From Candidatus Bathyarchaeota archaeon (GTDB lineage Archaea; Thermoproteota; Bathyarchaeia; Bathyarchaeales; UBA233): a DNA stretch of 9,558 nucleotides. Below, piece after piece: positions 1-9,227 of the stretch. A model generated the notes under the pieces. It searched no databases and had not been told where the DNA came from. It saw nothing but the letters and a program-made list of their open reading frames with translations. Numbering within the stretch: the first letter of the stretch is position 1; each line of letters starts with the position of its first letter. The translations under genes and the position numbers were made by a program. The DNA lies in the NCBI GenBank assembly GCA_004376975.1, contig SOJA01000204.1, positions 1-9,558 on the forward strand, in the 5' to 3' direction.

Positions 1-1452
1 GCAAACTACCTGATGACAGTATATAATGAATCTGGTCAGATGCCAGGCTGGATGAAATGGAACATAACATATGCCAACTATGTGACACCTTATCTGATAA
101 ATGTCACAACTTCGCAACAAGACATCAGCGGTCACATCTATACCTCGTCGATACTTGTAAATGTTCTTACCAGAGAAATGTCCGATCCATATAGTCCGCC
201 AGACTATTATTATTTCGGATGGATCGAAACTAACATCACAATAGGCTCTACAATAAGATTACTTGATACCACTGGCGTTGTCAAAGGTGAGGAAATAGTA
301 GAAGCTGCTGGAACACACATGGATTGCTGGATAGTCAAGGCGACAGTCTCTCTAGGATCCTATGTATTCAATTACACAATGTGGTACGACAAGGCTACAG
401 GGCTTTGGATAGGGATGAAAATGACTTCTTCCATCACCCCAGACCAATATGTTGTACTATTACTCGTTGATACGAACATTCCTGTAGGCGGAGCCTTTCA
501 AATCGAAACCGACAAACCTATGTACACGCGACTGGAAGTTGTAACCGCAACTGCAACCCTGATCATAGGTGACATACCAGTTGAAAGCGCAACAGTGACC
601 ATCCAAGTGGACTATCCAAATGGTACAGTATACTTTGTTTGGACAACAACGACAAATACAGATGGCACGGCAACAATCACCTTCTTTATAGATGAAAACG
701 CGCCCTATGGTACATACGTGGTTTCAGCAACAGCCTATAAACCAGGTATTGACCCAAGAACAGCTACAACAACGTTCATTGTAGGCCATCTTGAACCTCA
801 TATTGAAATGTGGTTTGAGGGACCTGACGTCGCGTTAATAGGATTCAATACTACGATAGTTCTCCACGTTCAGAACGTAGGAAACGCAACAGCCTACAAC
901 GTAGCTGCAACACTAAGCATTCCAAGCAGCCTAGTAGTAATCTCAGCTAACACAACGTTTACAGGCATCATGGATCCGGGACACGAAGTCACATTAGTTG
1001 CCTTAGTCATAGCAGCTACACCTAGCAGACATGCTTTCAATGCTTCCACCAGCTATACTAAAGTTGACGGAACTCCGATGGATACAGTTTACGAGGAAAA
1101 GACGCTGGTATATGCATATCACGAAGATTATGCAGTAGACTTTGTTGAGATGACAGTAACTGCCACAAACGAACAAATAACAGTAGAGTTAGCAATAACC
1201 AATTATGGGGATTCACCTGTAGAAATCACACTGATAGCTTCTGCTCAGCATATATCGTCCAAACTCATACTTCCATCAACTTATCAAACCATAACCCTCA
1301 ACCCTGGGGAAACTGCTACAATATCACTTGTCATAGCTATGCCATCAGCAGCCCCTTCCGGGGACTACATTATACAAGGCATCCTAGCCACTGGACTTCC
1401 AAGCCAAGATGGCTTCACATTGACACGTGGAGAAGAAACTGTAACCGTGTGA
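1..1452 (+). CDS. Secreted/cell-surface beta-domain protein with CARDB-like domains (5' partial)
   Basis: The frame is open from the first base, so the ATG at 13 is probably internal and the true start and signal peptide lie outside the window. Numbering the 483 visible residues from base 1, the first ~160 form a domain ending in a Y-x-K-A-T-G-L-W turn (YDKATGLW, near 129-136), resembling domains common in archaeal exported proteins. Residues ~166-262 form a macroglobulin (MG2)-like or Big-like domain starting TDKPMYTR and including YPNGTVYFVW. Residues ~266-374 look like a CARDB/DUF11-type domain (VLHVQNVGNATAYNV), and ~377-483 like a second one (ELAITNYGDSPVEI, LNPGETATI). Many N-x-S/T sequons fit an exported, N-glycosylated protein. 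There is no C-terminal membrane segment or recognisable sorting motif, so it may be released or held by partners. The MG2-like domain recurs in the next gene. The exact function is unknown. Confidence 0.85.
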   Translation, partial: ANYLMTVYNESGQMPGWMKWNITYANYVTPYLINVTTSQQDISGHIYTSSILVNVLTREMSDPYSPPDYYYFGWIETNITIGSTIRLLDTTGVVKGEEIVEAAGTHMDCWIVKATVSLGSYVFNYTMWYDKATGLWIGMKMTSSITPDQYVVLLLVDTNIPVGGAFQIETDKPMYTRLEVVTATATLIIGDIPVESATVTIQVDYPNGTVYFVWTTTTNTDGTATITFFIDENAPYGTYVVSATAYKPGIDPRTATTTFIVGHLEPHIEMWFEGPDVALIGFNTTIVLHVQNVGNATAYNVAATLSIPSSLVVISANTTFTGIMDPGHEVTLVALVIAATPSRHAFNASTSYTKVDGTPMDTVYEEKTLVYAYHEDYAVDFVEMTVTATNEQITVELAITNYGDSPVEITLIASAQHISSKLILPSTYQTITLNPGETATISLVIAMPSAAPSGDYIIQGILATGLPSQDGFTLTRGEETVTV

Positions 1453-1480
1453 AAGGAGAGAGCAAACAGGTGAAGGACAC

Positions 1481-1520
1481 ACAGGTCTTGCCTGTACTTC
1501 CCTTTTTTTATTTGCATTTT
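1481..1520 (+). terminator. Hairpin plus T-run terminator between the two surface-protein genes
   Basis: ACAGG at 1481-1485 pairs with CCTGT at 1491-1495 across a TCTTG loop. GAAG at 1472-1475 can pair with CTTC at 1497-1500 as an outer stem. Seven Ts at 1503-1509 and a further T-rich stretch to 1520 follow. It lies about 30 bases after the upstream stop codon, which fits transcription ending there. Archaeal termination depends mainly on the T-run, so the hairpin may be only supportive. Confidence 0.6.
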
Positions 1521-1586
1521 CTTAGAGGTGTGCATAATTGAATCTGGATAACGATCAGGTCAAAAATGATGGGTTGATGGAGATAT
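1521..1586 (+). promoter_or_regulatory. Probable promoter and ribosome-binding region of the 734-aa surface protein gene
   Basis: This 66-base stretch follows the terminator. A weak AT-rich element (TGCATAATTG, 1531-1540) lies about 50 bases before the ATG and is a possible TATA box. GGAG at 1579-1582 is four bases from the ATG at 1587 and is the likely Shine-Dalgarno site. The promoter call is weak; the RBS call is better supported. Confidence 0.4.
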
Positions 1587-3791
1587 ATGCGTGAAAAACT
1601 AGATGCGAGCTTGTTAATTCTCTTAGTACTTCTTTCTTTCTCTTCGGCTACTCAAGAGGTTTTCGCTGTAACATCACCTCTACATCAAAACGAGGGAAAC
1701 TTGGAAAGCAAATGTGCATCCAAGCTGAAATGCATAATGCAAACAAACATGGAAACGTCCTCCCTTTCCCTGCTTTTATCAACCGATAAAGACGCATATT
1801 ATCGACAAGAAACTGTTTTTGCAACGTCAACATTCTTGTATGAACAGACACCAATTCAAAACGCGTTAGTCACGTTAGAAGTTACGTTCCCCAACGGTAC
1901 ATCATGGTTTGTATGGACCAATAACACGGATGAGACTGGCTTTGCGACATTCAGGTTTCTTCTTCCTATAGCGAATCCATCAGGACAGTACGCAATCTAT
2001 GCAACAACCTATAAAGAAGGATTAGAAAATGTGTCAGCAACAACAAAATTCACCATCTTGAATCTTCCACCAGAAATTCATTCCGTCAAGATTATTCCGG
2101 AAGTAGTGGAACAGCCTACAACAGTTAGCATAAAAGCTAATGTAACAGACTTCGAAGAAGGAACAGATATTCACGTAAAATGTGCAGTCTCTATTCCAAA
2201 TGGGACAGTTCAGCGATTCGATATGATTTTTGACGGTGCATTTTTCTCTCTCAACTATCAAATACAGCAAAGAGATCCTGTGGGAACCTACAAAGTGACT
2301 GTGGAAGCTAGTGATTCGGAAGGCGCCTTCGCCCAGCCTTACGTGTCAAGCTTCGAAAATGCAAAAGCCGTGCATGACGTTGCTGTGTTAGGTATCTCAT
2401 TATCATCAAATATGGTGTTCCAAGGAGAACCAGTCACGATAAACGTGACTGTGGCTAACGAAGGAATGGTTATTGAAACCTTCAGTGTGGTTGTCTATGT
2501 GAACACTACAGCGATTGAGGCGAAAGAAGTAACCTTGACCATTGGAGCTTCTACTACGAGAGCTTTCCTTTGGAATACAACTGGTTTTCTTGGCAATTAC
2601 ATGGTAGTAGCCTGTGTTTCTTCGTTGCCAGGTGAAATTGACCTATCTGACAACACCTATGTAGATGGAATAGTGCAAGTAATTCCATGTGCTGCGCCGA
2701 TTGTAATAATAGATCAGGCTTTAGTTAGTGATTATAGGGTCGACGTTGGCAGTTTGCAGCAGGTCAGTTTTCATGCCAGGCGGTCAAACTGGTCGGAAAT
2801 TGTCGGCGGCACAATTTATGTTAATGAAACAGGCTATGTTACAAACCAAACTGGATGGATAACCTTTGAGCATGCATCTGACATTGTTGGGAAGACAACA
2901 TGGGTAGTAACTGGAGTCTTGTGCAATGGTATAACTGAGTTTGAATCAAATGGCGTATCTTGCATTTGGGATAGAATAGAGATCTTTGATGGAGGAGTGT
3001 CACATCCAATGACTAATCTTACGCAAACGGAAACAATCTGGTTTAAAGCTCAGTATGAATTTGACAGCATGATCTTTGATGAAAGTGAAGGCCTGCTTTT
3101 CGTTAATGGCTCTGGAATGGTTTGGTCTGAAATGAATAATAGATGGGAAAAGGCTTTCAACTTCGCGACTGTTGGAAACAGAATGTTCATGATTTCAGAC
3201 ATTTTAGACCACGCATATGATCTGACAGTGATAAACAATGTTGTTGAACCGTTATCAATATCATGGGTTGAAATGGTATTTTTTGTTCAGCCGCCCGCTC
3301 TAGGATGCCCAATACTGATAAATGCAACCGAAATGGTAAACGCCTTGATAATCATCGAAAACATATCGATGGCTTGCATGCTCCAAATCTTGCCTACAAC
3401 AATGCCTGGCCCTCCTCCAGAGGGATTTAAAAGCTGTGGAAAACCTTTTGAGATTAACACAACAGGAAATCCAACAGGGATCTTTAAGATTCGTATCTAC
3501 TATTCAGAAGAAGAACTAACGAATCTTGGCATAGAAGAGGACACACTGAAAATCTATGTTTGGAAGGGCGATGAGTGGGTACAACTTGCCAAGAGCAATG
3601 TCAATAGCACAGAAAACTATGTTGAAGTGGTTGTTAATCACTTCAGCATTTTCAATCTGATGGGGGTTCCCTCTCCAAGGCTGGAGCCAAGACTGTTATG
3701 GCTGATCTTGATTATTGTAGTAGTGTCTGTATTCGCAATTTCTATAGTGTTGTTTCTAAGAAAAAAGAGAGCAAACTTGCAATCACTCTAG
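1587..3791 (+). CDS. Membrane-anchored cell-surface protein: MG2-like, CARDB and C-terminal UPA-like domains
   Basis: This is a complete 734-residue exported protein. Residues 1-27 form a signal peptide (charged MREK, hydrophobic ILLVLLSF, cleavage likely after VFA). Residues ~62-158 are an MG2/Big-like domain (STDKDAYYRQ, FPNGTSWFVW) matching the upstream protein. Residues ~162-255 look like another beta-sandwich. Residues ~262-365 are a CARDB domain (HDVAVLGISLSS, VTINVTVANEG, LSDNTYVDG). Residues ~373-461 and ~462-560 look like two diverged copies of one module, with a W-D-R junction. Residues ~620-692 (IRIYYSEEELTNLGIEED, LKIYVWKGDEW, VNHFSIFNLMG) form a module frequent near the C-terminus of archaeal surface proteins and similar to UPA-type domains. 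A membrane helix at ~703-724 is followed by basic RKKR, giving an outside-facing body. About ten cysteines may form disulfides. Adhesion or an envelope-structural role is plausible; the ligand is unknown. Confidence 0.88.
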   Translation: MREKLDASLLILLVLLSFSSATQEVFAVTSPLHQNEGNLESKCASKLKCIMQTNMETSSLSLLLSTDKDAYYRQETVFATSTFLYEQTPIQNALVTLEVTFPNGTSWFVWTNNTDETGFATFRFLLPIANPSGQYAIYATTYKEGLENVSATTKFTILNLPPEIHSVKIIPEVVEQPTTVSIKANVTDFEEGTDIHVKCAVSIPNGTVQRFDMIFDGAFFSLNYQIQQRDPVGTYKVTVEASDSEGAFAQPYVSSFENAKAVHDVAVLGISLSSNMVFQGEPVTINVTVANEGMVIETFSVVVYVNTTAIEAKEVTLTIGASTTRAFLWNTTGFLGNYMVVACVSSLPGEIDLSDNTYVDGIVQVIPCAAPIVIIDQALVSDYRVDVGSLQQVSFHARRSNWSEIVGGTIYVNETGYVTNQTGWITFEHASDIVGKTTWVVTGVLCNGITEFESNGVSCIWDRIEIFDGGVSHPMTNLTQTETIWFKAQYEFDSMIFDESEGLLFVNGSGMVWSEMNNRWEKAFNFATVGNRMFMISDILDHAYDLTVINNVVEPLSISWVEMVFFVQPPALGCPILINATEMVNALIIIENISMACMLQILPTTMPGPPPEGFKSCGKPFEINTTGNPTGIFKIRIYYSEEELTNLGIEEDTLKIYVWKGDEWVQLAKSNVNSTENYVEVVVNHFSIFNLMGVPSPRLEPRLLWLILIIVVVSVFAISIVLFLRKKRANLQSL

Positions 3792-4235: not shown

Positions 4236-4264
4236 GGAAAAGCAGAAAAGAACATTAAAAAATC
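4236..4264 (-). terminator. T-rich terminator downstream of the eL41 gene
   Basis: On the - strand, starting about 15 bases after the eL41 stop codon, there is a run of six Ts (4262-4257) followed by TTCTTTTCTGCTTTT. Clustered T-runs of this kind are the usual archaeal termination signal. It would end the ecfA-ecfA-ecfT-hxlB-eL41 transcript. Confidence 0.5.
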
Positions 4265-4279
4265 TGTTGACTGATGAGC

Positions 4280-4357
4280 CTACTTGTATCTTGCGCGTCT
4301 TCTTTTTCTTTGTCTTTTCTTTTTGCGCATCTTCTTTTTTTTCCACTTCGCGCGAAT
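4280..4357 (-). CDS. rpl41e: Ribosomal protein eL41, 25 residues, apparent ATT start
   Basis: This is a 25-codon gene. The peptide begins (I/M)RAKWKKKKMRKKKRQ and ends RARYK, with 18 of 25 residues Lys or Arg. It aligns end to end without gaps with the known 25-residue eL41 family, whose eukaryotic members begin MRAKW and have Met at position 10, as here. eL41 is a single basic helix of the translating ribosome lying near the subunit interface. The frame has a TAA two codons before the ATT at 4357-4355, so no upstream start exists. The only internal ATG (4330) would drop the conserved RAKW and leave 16 residues. I therefore place the start at ATT, an unusual initiator; a sequence error at that base is the main alternative. 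A GGGG-containing stretch about ten bases upstream is a weak RBS. The gene begins 26 bases after hxlB ends, so it is probably co-transcribed. The family call is strong; the start is less sure. Confidence 0.82.
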   Translation of the reverse strand: MRAKWKKKKMRKKKRQRKRRRARYK

Positions 4358-4383
4358 GTCTTACACGCCCCAAATTGTTATTT

Positions 4384-4983
4384 CTACTCTATTGATGCAT
4401 GTCTACGCTTTAAATCCTCCCCAGTCCGGCCTAATCGATGCATCAACTCCACAATCAAACCATCTAAAAAGACCATGCAATTATTCTCAAAAATGCTTCC
4501 GAGAGGAGTTAGCGGTTCACGTTCACCAACAAGTTGCCTAGCTAGATAATCTTCCTCTCTAGGCCAGCCCATCTTCGTTCTGCCCTTAACCATTACTACA
4601 TGATCAGCTGTCTGACCCAGAGGAGACTCTGGAAACGAGGTTACAGCAATTACTGTTGTGCCAATTTCTTTGGCGGCGTTGCTTGCTGTCAGAACCATCT
4701 TTGTGGCTCCTGTACCTGAAATAGCTATCAGCAAGTCTTCTTCTTCCGCGGCGGGCGTTATAGTTTCACCTAGAAAGTAGACGTCAAAGCCTAGATTCAT
4801 TAAGCGTAAGGCGAAGGCTCTGCCGACAAATCCGCTTCTTCCCATGCCTACAATGAAAATTTTTTTGTCCTTAGCTCTAAGCAGAAGCTCGATGAGTCGT
4901 TCAACTTCTTTTACGTCAAGTTCTTCGATGGAACGTTTTATCCCAGAGACAATTTCATTTGCTGCAGCCTTCAGCCATTCCAA
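4384..4983 (-). CDS. hxlB: 6-phospho-3-hexuloisomerase (SIS domain)
   Basis: This 199-residue SIS-domain enzyme interconverts 3-hexulose 6-phosphate and fructose 6-phosphate. In archaea this reaction is usually part of the reversed ribulose monophosphate route that makes ribulose 5-phosphate when the oxidative pentose phosphate pathway is absent. Seen in the sequence: the phosphosugar-binding SIS core with GMGRSG (46-51), LGETITP (71-77) and ISGTG (88-92), and the family-typical C-terminus with PLGSIFE (160-166), FLDGLIVELM and a final KRRH (192-195). Glu166 and His195 match positions conserved in the family. The length fits the archaeal enzyme (about 180-200). The start is TTG at 4983: an in-frame TGA at 4992-4990 blocks any earlier one, the nearby ATG is out of frame, and GGAG lies 11 bases upstream. 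The partner hexulose-6-phosphate synthase is not in the window. The gene follows ecfT by 36 bases and precedes eL41. Confidence 0.93.
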   Translation of the reverse strand: MEWLKAAANEIVSGIKRSIEELDVKEVERLIELLLRAKDKKIFIVGMGRSGFVGRAFALRLMNLGFDVYFLGETITPAAEEEDLLIAISGTGATKMVLTASNAAKEIGTTVIAVTSFPESPLGQTADHVVMVKGRTKMGWPREEDYLARQLVGEREPLTPLGSIFENNCMVFLDGLIVELMHRLGRTGEDLKRRHASIE

Positions 4984-4994
4984 CTTTTTTCAAG

Positions 4995-5030
4995 CTCCGG
5001 AAAACTCTTACACAAACGCCTATATTAAAA
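4995..5030 (-). promoter_or_regulatory. Candidate internal promoter and RBS for hxlB
   Basis: TTTTAATATA (5030-5021 on the - strand) overlaps the last codons of ecfT and lies about 40 bases before the hxlB TTG, a fitting place for an archaeal TATA box. GGAG (4998-4995) is the likely RBS. This could let hxlB and eL41 be transcribed apart from the transporter genes. It is suggestive only. Confidence 0.35.
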
Positions 5031-5835
5031 ACCTTGCGGTATAAAAAAATCCTCCTAAAAGGTCATTTAAAGATGGGATTGTTAGGAATACGCGGACATA
5101 GATTGCGGTTAACAAGACTAGACCTGTTACCGCTATCAAAACGAGATCGCCTTTATGCAACTTAAGCGTGTAAAGGTTTGTGCGGTTTTTGGTTGCGCCC
5201 CACGCACGGGACTCCATGGTTTCAGCCAATTCAAGGCTTCTGCGAATTGCACTCACAATCAAAGGTATGAGAATAGGAATGTAATTCCTAATCCTTTTCA
5301 GAAAGTTTCCACGTTCCAGCTCCAATCCCCTTGCTTTCTGGGCATCCATAATTGTTTGGGCTTCTTCAGCTAGAACAGGGACGAAGCGTACAGCTGTTGT
5401 GAAGGCAAAACAGAACTCGAAAGGCACTCGTGTTTGTTCAAGAGCTAAGCCTAAGTGGTCTGGTGATGTGGTGAGGAAGAAAACTGAGAAGGACTCGATG
5501 AGAACTATGAAGCGTAAAGTCATGGCTATTGCATATTCTAAGTTAGAGGCTGTAACTATGTAGCCGGCGTTGATGAATGAAAATATGAAGTTGGTTAAGA
5601 AGATTATTGTGGCTAAGAGTGCTGCTCCCCGCATGGAACGGATCCATTCGCGTTCAACACGAGCTAGGATGACGAATGGAACTTGTATTAAAAAGAGTAT
5701 TGCTAGGGGTAGTAGTTTCCAGTAGACTATTGCTACTGCAAAAATTGCGCATACATAGACAAATTTTATTCTTGGATCTAGATTATGAATGGGGGAGTAG
5801 ACCCTTCGAAATTTGAGTCCATCAAAGACGCTCAT
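5020..5835 (-). CDS. ecfT: ECF transporter transmembrane coupling protein EcfT
   Basis: This 271-residue protein is the membrane scaffold of an energy-coupling factor importer. It links two ATPases to a substrate-binding S protein. Hydrophobic segments are visible at ~25-58, ~70-95, ~103-122, ~183-197 and ~230-250. The long cytoplasmic part carries the paired coupling motifs DAQKARG (164-170) and MESRAWG (207-213), which in EcfT proteins dock into the ATPases. The early HxLDPRxK signature (HNLDPRIK, 17-24) is also typical of the family. Its ATG overlaps the stop of the upstream ATPase gene by four bases (ATGA), implying translational coupling. The length is normal for the family. No S component lies next to it, so the substrate (vitamin, cobalt, nickel or other) cannot be told from this window. 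Confidence 0.93.
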   Translation of the reverse strand: MSVFDGLKFRRVYSPIHNLDPRIKFVYVCAIFAVAIVYWKLLPLAILFLIQVPFVILARVEREWIRSMRGAALLATIIFLTNFIFSFINAGYIVTASNLEYAIAMTLRFIVLIESFSVFFLTTSPDHLGLALEQTRVPFEFCFAFTTAVRFVPVLAEEAQTIMDAQKARGLELERGNFLKRIRNYIPILIPLIVSAIRRSLELAETMESRAWGATKNRTNLYTLKLHKGDLVLIAVTGLVLLTAIYVRVFLTIPSLNDLLGGFFYTARFLI

Positions 5836-6656
5836 TTTGCTCTTTTCTCCAAAACGTTGAGCAATTTTTTTTGTGCTTCGTAGACGTCAATAACTTCCTC
5901 TGATAGGTTGAGATCGGAGAGTTGAAGGAATATTTGAGTTATTTGCGGTGGTACAATTGATGTGTATGTTAGGATTTCAGGGTTTGTAAGCACCTCTAGT
6001 GCCTCACCATCAGCCGTTATTTTTCCTTGCCGCATTAACAAAACTCTTGGTTTGCATTCAGCCACGAACTCTACGTCGTGTGTGACAATGATTATGGTTT
6101 TTCTTTGAGCTTTCATTTGAAGGATGAACTGGAGAAGTTTCTCTTTTTGTTGGTAGTCTTGTCCTATGGTTGGTTCGTCCAGTATCAGTATTTTCGGGTT
6201 CCACGCCAAAACTGAAGCTAGGGCTACACGCTTCCTTTCTCCACCACTTAGCATGAAAGGTGAGGTTTTTCTGTATCGTGTTAGATCAAGAAGGTTTAGA
6301 GCCCATGTTACGCGTTTTCTTATTGTTTTTTCTTTGAACCCGAAATTTTTTAGGGCAAACGCTATTTCTTCCTCAACTGTTTCGCTGAAAAGCTGATTAT
6401 CCGGGTTTTGGAAGACGAATCCCACTTTTCTAGCAAGGGCTGCGACACTGACTTTTGTTGTGTTCACTCCGTCAACAAATACGTTTCCTTTGGTCGGCTT
6501 GAGCAATCCGTTAAAATGTTTAACCAGAGTTGTTTTTCCTGCACCATTTTCACCCATTAATGCTAGGAACTCGCCGTTTTTTATTGTTAAAGATGTGCCT
6601 TTTAGTGCTTCTACTCCGTTTGGATATGTGAAATAAACATCCTTAACTTCGATCAT
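5832..6656 (-). CDS. ecfA: ECF transporter ATP-binding protein (second ATPase)
   Basis: This 274-residue ABC ATPase powers the EcfT-based importer on the cytoplasmic face. Seen in the sequence: Walker A GENGAGKTT (35-43), Q-loop Gln83 in FQNPDNQLF (typical of ECF/CbiO ATPases), signature LSGGE (136-140), Walker B ILILDEP (156-162) with catalytic Glu161, and switch His193. The D-loop region reads TIGQD rather than SALD, which I recall as common in archaeal ECF ATPases. The C-terminal ~50 residues form the helical extension through which EcfA subunits dimerise. The start overlaps the previous ATPase gene by 14 bases and the end overlaps ecfT by four, so the three are one translational unit. It pairs with the ATPase at 6643-7503 as a heterodimer. 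I do not assign EcfA1 or EcfA2 identity. Confidence 0.93.
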   Translation of the reverse strand: MIEVKDVYFTYPNGVEALKGTSLTIKNGEFLALMGENGAGKTTLVKHFNGLLKPTKGNVFVDGVNTTKVSVAALARKVGFVFQNPDNQLFSETVEEEIAFALKNFGFKEKTIRKRVTWALNLLDLTRYRKTSPFMLSGGERKRVALASVLAWNPKILILDEPTIGQDYQQKEKLLQFILQMKAQRKTIIIVTHDVEFVAECKPRVLLMRQGKITADGEALEVLTNPEILTYTSIVPPQITQIFLQLSDLNLSEEVIDVYEAQKKLLNVLEKRAK

Positions 6657-7503
6657 TAGCTTTTAGGACTCTCCTTAACGTGGCTGCCATTTCATCTGAA
6701 GACAATGGGATTGTGCTGCCAAGGTTTATTCCGTCCTTTTGAAGTATCTGGTATAGGCGTGTTGGTTTTGGAATCCCAACTCCGATTAGGCGGGCTTCTT
6801 CAGAGCTTAGAATTTTTCGTGGTTCTCCGTCGAGAACGATTTTTCCGGAATCCATTATGATTATGTGATTTGCGTATTTTGCAGTTAGGTCAAGTCTATG
6901 TTCAACAAGTACAACGGTGACCTCAAGTTTTCTGTTCAAATCGTAAATGACTTCAAATATTTTTTTTGCACCCAAGGGGTCAAGAAAGGATGTTGGCTCA
7001 TCAAGGACTACTACTTCTGGTTGCATGGCAAGAACGGATGCAATTGCCACTCGCTGTTGTTGTCCGCCTGAAAGTTCATAGGGTGCTCTCTCCCTCAGAT
7101 CGTATATGCCAGTAAGGTTAAGTGCCCAGTCTACTCTTTTGCGCATTTCGTCTCTTGGAACTCCTAGGTTTTCTAGTCCAAAAGCTACATCCTTCTCTAC
7201 TGATAGTGCGAAAAGCTGGTTTTCTGGATTTTGGAAAACGAGCCCTACATGTTTTGCCAGTTCACAAATTGGATGCTCAATTACTTTAAGTCCGGCGGCT
7301 GTTACTTCTCCTTCTATTGAACCTTCGTAGAAATGTGGGATTAATCCGTTAAAGCATCTGCAAAGAGTTGTTTTTCCACATCCGCTTGGACCGGTGATTA
7401 GGGTGAATTCTCCTTTTTCAATTTTTATAGATACATCTTTAATTGATGGTGCTGTTCTGTTAGGGTAGATGTATGTGAGGTTCTTCGTTTCAATTATTGC
7501 CAT
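6643..7503 (-). CDS. ecfA: ECF transporter ATP-binding protein (first ATPase)
   Basis: This 286-residue ABC ATPase is the first gene of the ECF module. Seen in the sequence: Walker A GPSGCGKTT (38-46), Q-loop Gln91 in FQNPENQLF, a canonical signature LSGGQ (144-148), Walker B VVVLDEP (164-170) with Glu169, D-loop SFLD (172-175) and switch His202 in EHRLD. A C-terminal extension (~230-286) follows, as in EcfA proteins. It differs enough from the second ATPase, mainly in signature and D-loop, to suggest an asymmetric pair. The start is the ATG at 7503, the first in-frame ATG of a protein beginning at the expected N-terminal strand (IIETKNLTYIYP). The gene lies 57 bases after the DHH gene, and the gap can hold a promoter, so the ECF operon may be a separate transcript. 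Confidence 0.93.
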   Translation of the reverse strand: MAIIETKNLTYIYPNRTAPSIKDVSIKIEKGEFTLITGPSGCGKTTLCRCFNGLIPHFYEGSIEGEVTAAGLKVIEHPICELAKHVGLVFQNPENQLFALSVEKDVAFGLENLGVPRDEMRKRVDWALNLTGIYDLRERAPYELSGGQQQRVAIASVLAMQPEVVVLDEPTSFLDPLGAKKIFEVIYDLNRKLEVTVVLVEHRLDLTAKYANHIIIMDSGKIVLDGEPRKILSSEEARLIGVGIPKPTRLYQILQKDGINLGSTIPLSSDEMAATLRRVLKANDRS

Positions 7504-7560
7504 GATTATTGTGCCTGCCTACTTGTAAGCGGGTTCATTTTCTCATTTAAGAGTAGCTAC
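7504..7560 (-). promoter_or_regulatory. Candidate promoter of the ECF operon
   Basis: This is the 57-base gap between the DHH gene and the first ECF ATPase. An AT-rich TCTTAAATG element (7551-7543) lies about 43 bases before the ATG, which would place transcription start roughly 15-20 bases upstream of it. An 8-bp palindrome GTAGCTAC (7553-7560) abuts the DHH stop codon side. AGGCAGG lies upstream of the ATG as a weak RBS. There is no room for a riboswitch. The promoter call is inference. Confidence 0.35.
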
Positions 7561-8553
7561 TTAATTGTTGGTTAATTTTTCCTTTAGAAGCCCTAAACAT
7601 TGGTCAAGTCCTTTTTCAATGTCTCCTGTTCCGTTGGCTCCGGCGGCTGTGGAATGTCCGCCACCCATACCGTGAAAGTGTTCCCCTAGAGGTTTGGCTA
7701 TGTCTCTGCCAAGGTGGATACTTGTCTTCTTGTAGAAGTCGCGAGTTGAACGTAAGCTAATATCTAGCTTTCTGTTTTTATCTCCAGCTACAACTGCGAC
7801 GTGGGCGCCTAATTCAATTATTGCTCTTGCTGCTGAAGCTTGGTAGGCGCTGACATGTGAAAAAACTATTATCCATTCGTTGATTTTGATGATTTTGGCT
7901 CTTTTGGAGGCTTTTAGTCTTGCTACGCGTTCTGGAGTTTCCATCGGTATTGATAGTAAAGGCAATGTCTCTTGTGCGTTTACGCCAACATCGGTGAGTT
8001 CTGCAACAGTCTTCAGTGTGGATGTTTTGGCTATGATGAAATGGCGTGTGTCAAATGCGATGCCTAAAAACAGTGCTTTTGCTTCATTTTCACCGGGTTT
8101 AACTTTCATCTGCTTGAATAAGCTGTAAATAATTTCGCATGTTGAGGAAGCTTCTTCGTTTGTTATGTATAGTTCTGCTATTTGCTTTGTTTCAGGATGG
8201 GGTGCGTGATGGTCGATAACTATGATTGGTGCCTGTGAATTTTTGACTTTTTCAGCTAAATTATTTAGTTGCTGAATTGTGTTTGTGTCTAGTAAGACTA
8301 TTACATCAGAATTTTCCACGTCAGGCTGTGTTTCTATTTTTATGGGTAAATGTTTGAGGAGGTGTTTTGAAAGCCGGCTTATTCCGTGAGATGCTCCAAT
8401 TTGAACTTCAAGATTCGGTCTAAAATTTTTTATCAGGCTTTTGAAGGCGTAAGCTGAACAAATGGCGTCTGGGTCAGCATTGTGGTGACATAATAAAACT
8501 ACAAGTTCAGTGCCTGGCTTGTCTAGAATTTTGGTTATCTCTTGGAATGACAT
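7561..8553 (-). CDS. DHH/DHHA1-family phosphoesterase
   Basis: This is a 330-residue metal-dependent phosphoesterase. DHH motifs seen in order: HHNADPDA (23-30), LLDTN with Asp89 (87-91), IDHH (113-116) and GIAFDTRH with Asp168 (164-171). These supply the usual Mn2+-binding Asp and His residues. The C-terminal DHHA1 substrate-binding domain ends with GMGGGHSTAAG (295-305). This layout is that of DHH subfamily 1 (NrnA, oligoribonuclease/pAp phosphatase and RecJ-like proteins). The size fits an NrnA-like enzyme rather than full RecJ, but the substrate (short RNA, pAp, cyclic dinucleotide product or ssDNA) cannot be read from the sequence. The ATG overlaps the DUF3194 gene by 19 bases and has GAGG eight bases upstream, so the two are translationally linked. 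It is the last gene of the pcc1-pfdB-DUF3194-DHH run. Confidence 0.92.
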   Translation of the reverse strand: MSFQEITKILDKPGTELVVLLCHHNADPDAICSAYAFKSLIKNFRPNLEVQIGASHGISRLSKHLLKHLPIKIETQPDVENSDVIVLLDTNTIQQLNNLAEKVKNSQAPIIVIDHHAPHPETKQIAELYITNEEASSTCEIIYSLFKQMKVKPGENEAKALFLGIAFDTRHFIIAKTSTLKTVAELTDVGVNAQETLPLLSIPMETPERVARLKASKRAKIIKINEWIIVFSHVSAYQASAARAIIELGAHVAVVAGDKNRKLDISLRSTRDFYKKTSIHLGRDIAKPLGEHFHGMGGGHSTAAGANGTGDIEKGLDQCLGLLKEKLTNN

Positions 8554-8837
8554 GTTAACTGCCTCAAGTAAATTTCAGCTGAGGTGAAAGCTTCTTTTAC
8601 TGCTTCGTCTACAAGCTTTTGCACATCAATTTTCTTCATTAATGGTGATAGAGAGACGTTAACGTCAATCATGAGCGTCACAGGTTTCGTTCCTTCAATT
8701 TCCACGCTTGTGTCTAGTTCTTCTATTCTTTTTGAACAAACCTTTGACAGTACGTATTCCCTAGCGGTTTTCTCAACAATTGAGCAGAGCTCTTCAATTT
8801 GTATGGCATTTAACTCTGGAATGCCAAGTTCTTCCAC
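8535..8837 (-). CDS. DUF3194 family protein (uncharacterised archaeal)
   Basis: This 100-residue protein resembles the archaeal DUF3194 family, whose genes commonly sit beside prefoldin beta. The first half is mostly helical (AIQIEELCSIVEKTAREYVL), followed by a beta stretch (VEIEGTKPVTLMIDVNVSLS) and a final helix (VQKLVDEAVKEAFTSAEIYL). That layout, a helix then a strand pair then a helix, suggests a small alpha/beta domain. No catalytic motif, metal site or membrane segment is visible. The start is GTG at 8837, with GGTGG six bases upstream as a good RBS; the gene begins 24 bases after pfdB stops and its end overlaps the DHH gene. The function is unknown. A role connected with prefoldin or with RNA-related neighbours is only inferred from gene order. 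Confidence 0.82.
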   Translation of the reverse strand: MEELGIPELNAIQIEELCSIVEKTAREYVLSKVCSKRIEELDTSVEIEGTKPVTLMIDVNVSLSPLMKKIDVQKLVDEAVKEAFTSAEIYLRQLTCHSKR

Positions 8838-8861
8838 AGCTGTCCACCAAAGGGATTGCGG

Positions 8862-9227
8862 CTAGGAAGGAGAAATAGGGCTTAAGTCTTTTTGTAGTTT
8901 AGTCTGCAAATCCTTCAATTGTCCCCGTAGACGTCCCTCCTGCTTTCCAAGAACTTGAACTCGCATGTTAAGTAGCTCTTTTCGTTCATTCAAGTCGGCT
9001 GTTACTTTTAATTTTTCAGCTTTTATCAGTAGCGAGCCTATTGCCTTGTATATTACTGTGTCGTCCGCTATTTCCTGTAGTTCGCTTAGAGCCTGCTCAA
9101 CTTCTGTTAGTTCAAGTTCTACTTGCTGTTTTTGTGCCAAGACCGTTTGAAGAGTTTGTTGTCGCTGTTGAAGTGTTAGTAAACGTTCTTGAATATGAGG
9201 CGGAAGTTTCGAGATTTCGTCACTCAC
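8862..9227 (-). CDS. pfdB: Prefoldin beta subunit
   Basis: This 121-residue protein is a subunit of the archaeal prefoldin hexamer (two alpha, four beta), a cytosolic chaperone that holds unfolded proteins and passes them to the thermosome. Seen in the sequence: two long coiled-coil helices (~7-50 and ~72-113, rich in Q, L, E and K), joined by a short beta-hairpin segment (DDTVIYKAIGSLLIKAE, ~55-71), which is the standard beta-prefoldin plan. VYKxxGxLLIK-type residues in the hairpin are family hallmarks. The length is typical (about 115-125). The start is GTG at 9227; the codon before it is an in-frame TAA, so no longer product is possible, and GGAAGGG (9241-9235) lies seven bases upstream as RBS. 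Its neighbours pcc1 and DUF3194 match the order seen in many archaea. The alpha subunit gene is not in the window. Confidence 0.95.
   Translation of the reverse strand: MSDEISKLPPHIQERLLTLQQRQQTLQTVLAQKQQVELELTEVEQALSELQEIADDTVIYKAIGSLLIKAEKLKVTADLNERKELLNMRVQVLGKQEGRLRGQLKDLQTKLQKDLSPISPS

Follow-up and report, generated by a model that had tools for sequence, protein, structure and literature searches.

The gene for the ribosomal protein eL41 (eS32) in the stretch of Bathyarchaeia DNA analysed here (9,558 nucleotides, contig SOJA01000204.1; hereafter, the window) very probably begins its translation at an AUU codon, in place of which relatives have AUC or AUA. Judging from the comparison of related loci, this start would be read by the initiator tRNA and carried by a strong Shine–Dalgarno pairing. 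If an archaeal ribosomal protein has indeed kept a start other than AUG, GUG and UUG, the range of codons known to be accepted in archaeal initiation would become wider. The retention of such a weak start in dozens of species hints at some use for it, perhaps in regulating the ribosome by feedback. The codons ATT, ATC and ATA are collectively designated ATH below (AUH in mRNA).

The eL41 gene in the window

The eL41 coding frame occupies positions 4280–4357 of the minus strand and consists of 25 codons and a TAG stop; its assignment is based on the frame itself, a profile match in PDB, class-wide conservation and pN/pS. The minus strand reads TAA GAC ATT CGC GCG AAG TGG at the beginning of this region and TAC AAG TAG at its end, which translates into stop-D-I-RAKWKKKKMRKKKRQRKRRRARYK-stop. 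ATT (4355–4357, minus strand) is the first codon of the 25 and is regarded as the start codon based on the comparison over 79 loci; no in-frame canonical start lies upstream of it in the window. The 25-codon eL41 frame beginning with ATT, as described in the initial annotation, is confirmed by the sequence: its coordinates are correct, TAA occurs two codons upstream of ATT, and the sole ATG is codon 10, from which 16 residues would remain. Directly upstream of eL41 is an hxlB-like 6-phospho-3-hexuloisomerase gene with a TTG start (4384–4983, minus strand; TIGR03127, 171.5 bits), and the eL41 frame begins 26 bases past its stop. No phage match was found for positions 4250–4450, and no Rfam match anywhere in the window.

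A profile (A1) was built from 12 Bathyarchaeia versions of the peptide and compared with 177,635 distinct PDB sequences. All 11 matches with E up to 0.01 and all 23 with E up to 10 were named eL41, L41 or eS32. The best of them was chain 4v3p_Lq (wheat germ), aligned 1–25 on 1–25 without gaps, so that the whole-length ungapped match to eL41 asserted in the initial annotation holds for 25 of 25 positions. Residues R2, K4, W5 and K6–K8 are invariant in A1; the basic N-terminus R-x-K-W of eL41/eS32 is thus present. These matches identify the gene as that of eL41 (eS32), and the window peptide is not simply a basic run that arose by chance. Positions 1–21 of A1 also align on residues 14–34 of chain 6sw9_0, which we take to be part of the P. 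abyssi complex, and R2 falls on residue 15. R15 of P. abyssi eL41 is reported to be in contact with ac4C1479 near the P site (PMC7005279). By alignment, Bathyarchaeia R2 corresponds to the position of this ac4C-contacting arginine, and the same contact is predicted for it.

The window peptide alone gave no L41 match in Pfam or NCBIfam with Ile as the first residue, and with Met it scored 10.1 bits against the PF05162 cut-off of 22.3. Since a six-frame search with PF05162 exceeded this cut-off in none of four Bathyarchaeia genomes and none of 14 control genomes, the cut-off fails to discriminate at a length of 25 residues; having found little in the four genomes, it was replaced by the Bathyarchaeia eL41 profile. 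This shows how such genes escape annotation: they remain below the Pfam cut-off, and in some loci no frame from a canonical start contains eL41, so that the gene is missed.

Distribution of eL41 among relatives

The A1 profile detected eL41 in 86 of 256 genomes from the class Bathyarchaeia. Stretches around all 86 matches were fetched, and the N-terminus was parsed by script in 77 and read by hand in nine. An RxKW-type N-terminus was found in 78 of the 256 Bathyarchaeia genomes (the 77 parsed by script and L085), while genomes without an eL41 match may be incomplete or carry diverged versions. Among the loci read by hand, L085 has TTG at the start position, and L111 and L117 have ATG two codons upstream. 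In five others (L113, L115, L116, L120 and L121), the eL41-like frame lacks RAKW and is longer at its N-terminus, which begins with MARKH or MSRKH. Another, L119, has a diverged eL41-like frame of uncertain assignment, in which ACG occupies the start position and a TTG lies three codons further upstream. In a phylum-wide sample of 398 genomes, 32 matches were obtained, among which a single genome, G260 (ATG), was new; elsewhere in the Thermoproteota, eL41 may have diverged too far to be recognised by the A1 profile.

The hxlB-like protein led to 35 related loci in the genome collection, in 25 of which eL41 follows the hxlB-like gene. In L013, the eL41 following this gene is cut by the contig end, and in L034 and L035 the sequence ends at the hxlB-like gene. 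No eL41 was found after the hxlB-like gene in the remaining seven of the 35 loci (L019, L022, L025, L026 and L031–L033). The parsed class loci, the loci obtained from the hxlB-like relatives and the window together make up 79 distinct loci; the nine read by hand and G260 were excluded from this set.

Codon at the start position

The initial annotation had held that ATG in relatives would remove the unusual start. ATG indeed occupies the position in 40 of the 79 loci, but ATH is kept in 37, with GTG and TTG in one locus each. Counted per genome, the 77 parsed of the 86 have ATG in 40, ATC in 16, ATT in 13, ATA in six, TTG in one and GTG in one. Because only ATG, ATH, GTG and TTG occur at this position in the 79 loci, the pattern is that expected of a start codon. 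No in-frame ATG, GTG or TTG exists between the last stop and ATH in 12 of the 37 ATH loci, and in four of these 12 (L092, L097, L109 and L114) the peptide contains no Met, yet it is conserved. The close pair L102 (ATA) and L107 (ATG) have GTAGGTTGAA in common immediately before the start position, and their peptides do not differ from residue 2 onwards. By sequence comparison, the ATH start position is thus conserved at the codon level in the manner of an infC-type start, and its use as a start is predicted.

Values of pN/pS were 0.13 in 40 ATG loci, 0.15 in 36 ATH loci and 0.19 in the 12 loci without a canonical start, all of them rough because pS is near saturation. By this measure, the eL41 peptide in the 12 loci is under purifying selection. 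Conservation of the peptide in relatives, on which the initial annotation had made the existence of the gene depend, was found, both in the 86 class genomes with eL41 and in this range of pN/pS.

Besides a start at ATT, the initial annotation had considered a wrong base call and a 16-residue stub, and the alignment of relatives supports the start. A sequencing or assembly error at 4355–4357 might be suspected given that the window is a single record, but 35 of the 77 parsed class genomes also have ATH here, as does L003, and these are independent assemblies; a wrong base call is rejected on this ground, its probability being negligible. It is also highly improbable that the true product is the stub beginning at ATG10, even though the window and many other loci have this codon. 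The residues before codon 10 are conserved, including those invariant in A1, and several loci encode a residue other than Met at codon 10. Since L092, L097, L109 and L114 are conserved both without Met and without any canonical start upstream, ATG10 is not the general start, and the stub was likewise rejected.

The history of the start codon was followed on a tree of the hxlB-like protein, comprising the 42 of the 79 eL41 loci in which the script found the hxlB-like gene adjacent, 31 of them ATH rows. On the best tree, ATH needs five changes, of which well-supported branches force two. Within the main ATH clade, two nested pairs have ATG or TTG instead (L010/L030 and L018/L023), and at least 10 third-base changes have occurred among the 31 ATH rows, as ATT, ATC and ATA interchange.

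The Shine–Dalgarno element and the upstream GTG

Two features add to the initial annotation, namely a strong Shine–Dalgarno-like element and an upstream GTG, which in most relatives is a serious rival start. The element of the window is GGGGCGTG (4364–4371, minus strand), located 6 nt before ATT, with a predicted pairing energy of −8.5 kcal/mol. A search for 16S rRNA in 16 genomes gave a match in 10, several of them partial, and the 16S tail was GGATCACCTCCT in all seven loci whose 3′ end could be read. With this tail, GGGGCGTG is predicted to form four pairs, one bulge and three pairs; more generally, GGRG-N-GTG pairs as GGRG, one bulged base and GTG, which is the 3′ half.

The GGRGNGTG motif precedes ATH in 29 of the 37 ATH loci, at 6 nt in 27 and at 7 nt in two, and ATH loci without the GTG show strong 16S pairing through other letters. 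The median predicted pairing energy was −9.2 kcal/mol in the 37 ATH loci versus −6.3 kcal/mol in the 40 ATG loci (Mann–Whitney P = 1e-11, kinship ignored). Local mRNA folding showed little difference (median −6.6 for ATH and −5.9 for ATG). A paired test on the tree gave two contrasts on well-supported branches (five on all branches); on average 1.7 of the 2 had the same direction and none the opposite one, and with only two well-supported contrasts this test cannot reach significance.

The GTG contained in GGGGCGTG (4364–4366, minus strand) raises the question of whether the conserved GTG three codons upstream is itself the start. The product would then be M-x-x-I-R-A-K-W with Ile as residue 4, and loci of the window type would use another start or be decaying. 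An open in-frame GTG does lie upstream of ATH in 23 of the 37 loci, three codons away in 22 and four in one, and the 6-nt spacing between GTG and ATH in 27 of the 29 motif loci is one that a reading frame would also give. A TTG could serve as the start in two of the eight ATH loci that lack GGRGNGTG, namely L086 (three codons upstream) and L100 (12 and 17 codons upstream). The absence of the motif in the two nested ATG/TTG clades agrees with a GTG start, but it fits either view. However, in the window an in-frame TAA (4361–4363, minus strand) separates GTG from ATT and excludes a GTG start there. The motif GTG is blocked by TAA or TAG in five loci (the window, L003, L011, L092 and L097), is out of frame in L001, and is missing altogether from the eight loci mentioned. 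Purifying selection acts on the peptide in loci that GTG cannot serve. A GTG start would allow no stops in the interval up to ATH, but they occur in 5 of 27 loci against a column-shuffle mean of 4.97, which is the frequency expected by chance; zero stops were obtained in 0.03% of the shuffles (kinship ignored). The three stop-bearing loci on the hxlB tree require three separate changes on the best tree. Furthermore, GGRG ends 1 nt before GTG, too near to act as its Shine–Dalgarno sequence. As a part of the pairing, in contrast, GTG sits 6 nt before ATH, the same distance at which GGAGGUG precedes AUG in the P. abyssi EF1A leader (PMC6237735). A GTG start is thus unlikely, and from the sequences compared the upstream GTG reads better as a part of a bulged Shine–Dalgarno element, GGRG-N-GTG, than as a start codon.

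Start codons of other genes

No ATH start was found among the parsed loci of three control genes, aIF1, eL39 and the hxlB-like gene. In genomes with ATH at eL41, aIF1 had ATG at its conserved N-terminus in all 28 loci parsed out of 30. For eL39, 24 of 30 loci were parsed, with ATG in 21, TTG in one, GTG in one and CTG preceded by GTG in one. The first aligned codon of the hxlB-like gene was TTG in 40 and ATG in one of 41 loci, the window included (31 with ATH and 10 with ATG at eL41); the UUG start of this gene is strongly kept.

In addition, 400 kb of each of two genomes (G123 and G135) were scanned over the first 60 codons of long frames, with their own eL41 excluded. Shine–Dalgarno pairing of −8 or lower was enriched before ATG, GTG and TTG in both genomes; for ATG, it was present upstream of 8.6% of codons in G123 and 10.7% in G135, against 2.2% and 4.2% for other codons. 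The corresponding values before ATT, ATC and ATA were 0.8–2.6% in G123 and 2.9–3.8% in G135. At −9.5, the values before ATH were 0.4–1.5% versus 1.0% in G123 and 1.6–2.3% versus 2.0% in G135. As no clear excess of Shine–Dalgarno pairing before ATH was found in these 800 kb, initiation at AUH is not detectable as a general practice in the two genomes, although rare cases would escape such a scan.

Putative promoter and neighbouring genes

A TATA-like box, ATTTAAAGCG (4406–4415, minus strand), is located inside the end of the hxlB-like gene. In L092 and L097, only short hxlB-like remnants match, at bases ~840–970 of the 1,000 upstream of eL41, and ATTTAAAGCG and the hxlB-like 3′ end are still present before eL41. 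This persistence where the hxlB-like gene is reduced to remnants suggests that the eL41 promoter lies at ATTTAAAGCG.

Further upstream, positions 5020–9227 of the minus strand form one run with genes for an ECF-type transporter, a DHH-family protein, a DUF3194 protein and prefoldin beta. The transporter includes a CbiQ-like T component below the NCBIfam cut-off and two ABC ATPases. The plus strand carries two frames with MG2 matches at positions 1–3791, the first below the cut-off and the second also with CARDB; these may be surface proteins.

Proposed initiation and feedback

We suggest the following course of initiation at eL41. The small subunit would be recruited through the strong pairing of GGRG-N-GUG, 6 nt before AUH, with the 16S tail 5′-AUCACCUCCU-3′. 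The initiator tRNA would then be accepted on two codon–anticodon pairs and a third-position mismatch, and the ribosome would initiate at AUH with Met.

Contacts of eL41 with modified bases around the P site and, via its C-terminus, with aIF2γ have been described, and the protein has been proposed to help in selecting the start codon (PMC7005279, PMC7531240). Its position by the P site makes a feedback of the infC type attractive. With its expected place by the P site, the 16S helices h44/h45 and aIF2γ, eL41 may make start selection stricter, and subunits lacking it may accept the AUH start and so replenish the protein. That the weak start is kept for this purpose is a tentative proposal made by analogy, and we regard it as possible but rather doubtful. 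With the same reserve, the gene could be pictured as a built-in sensor of start stringency: an eL41-free 30S subunit would initiate at AUH, an eL41-bearing one would not, and eL41 would set its own level.

An AUH start without regulatory purpose competes with this feedback only, not with the AUH start as such, and its probability comes close to even. The codon would have drifted, tolerated thanks to the strong Shine–Dalgarno element; the interchange of ATT, ATC and ATA and the recurrence of ATG in nested clades agree with this. On the other hand, ATH occupies several unconnected regions of the tree (the five changes given above, two of them forced), though a single base would restore AUG. If the sensor does exist, archaea would possess a counterpart of infC, set in a ribosomal protein, with three AUH codons tied to a bulged Shine–Dalgarno element. 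Since eL41 has been proposed to act in start-codon selection, the question of its role becomes directly testable.

Comparison with known systems

No description of eL41 starting at AUH was found in the literature searched, which was a limited collection. The Bathyarchaeia protein resembles eL41/eS32 of eukaryotes and archaea (PF05162) in giving the same 25-residue ungapped match to solved eL41 chains, but differs in having AUH at the start position. The P. abyssi eL41 has an N-terminal extension, for which there is no room in Bathyarchaeia loci with a stop just upstream.

The nearest parallel is provided by bacterial infC, the gene for IF3, which has an AUU start with autocontrol; the work on it cited in PMC9845219 includes Butler et al. 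(1987). In both cases, an AUU-type start has been conserved, and the encoded protein is placed close to the site of start-codon selection on the small subunit. However, infC encodes an initiation factor, whereas eL41 is an archaeal ribosomal protein for which feedback would be an analogy. Eukaryotic eIF1 is autoregulated through its poor start context. Like the proposed eL41 system, it combines a weak start with a gene that tunes start stringency, but in eIF1 the weakness resides in the context rather than the codon, and it acts on scanning ribosomes.
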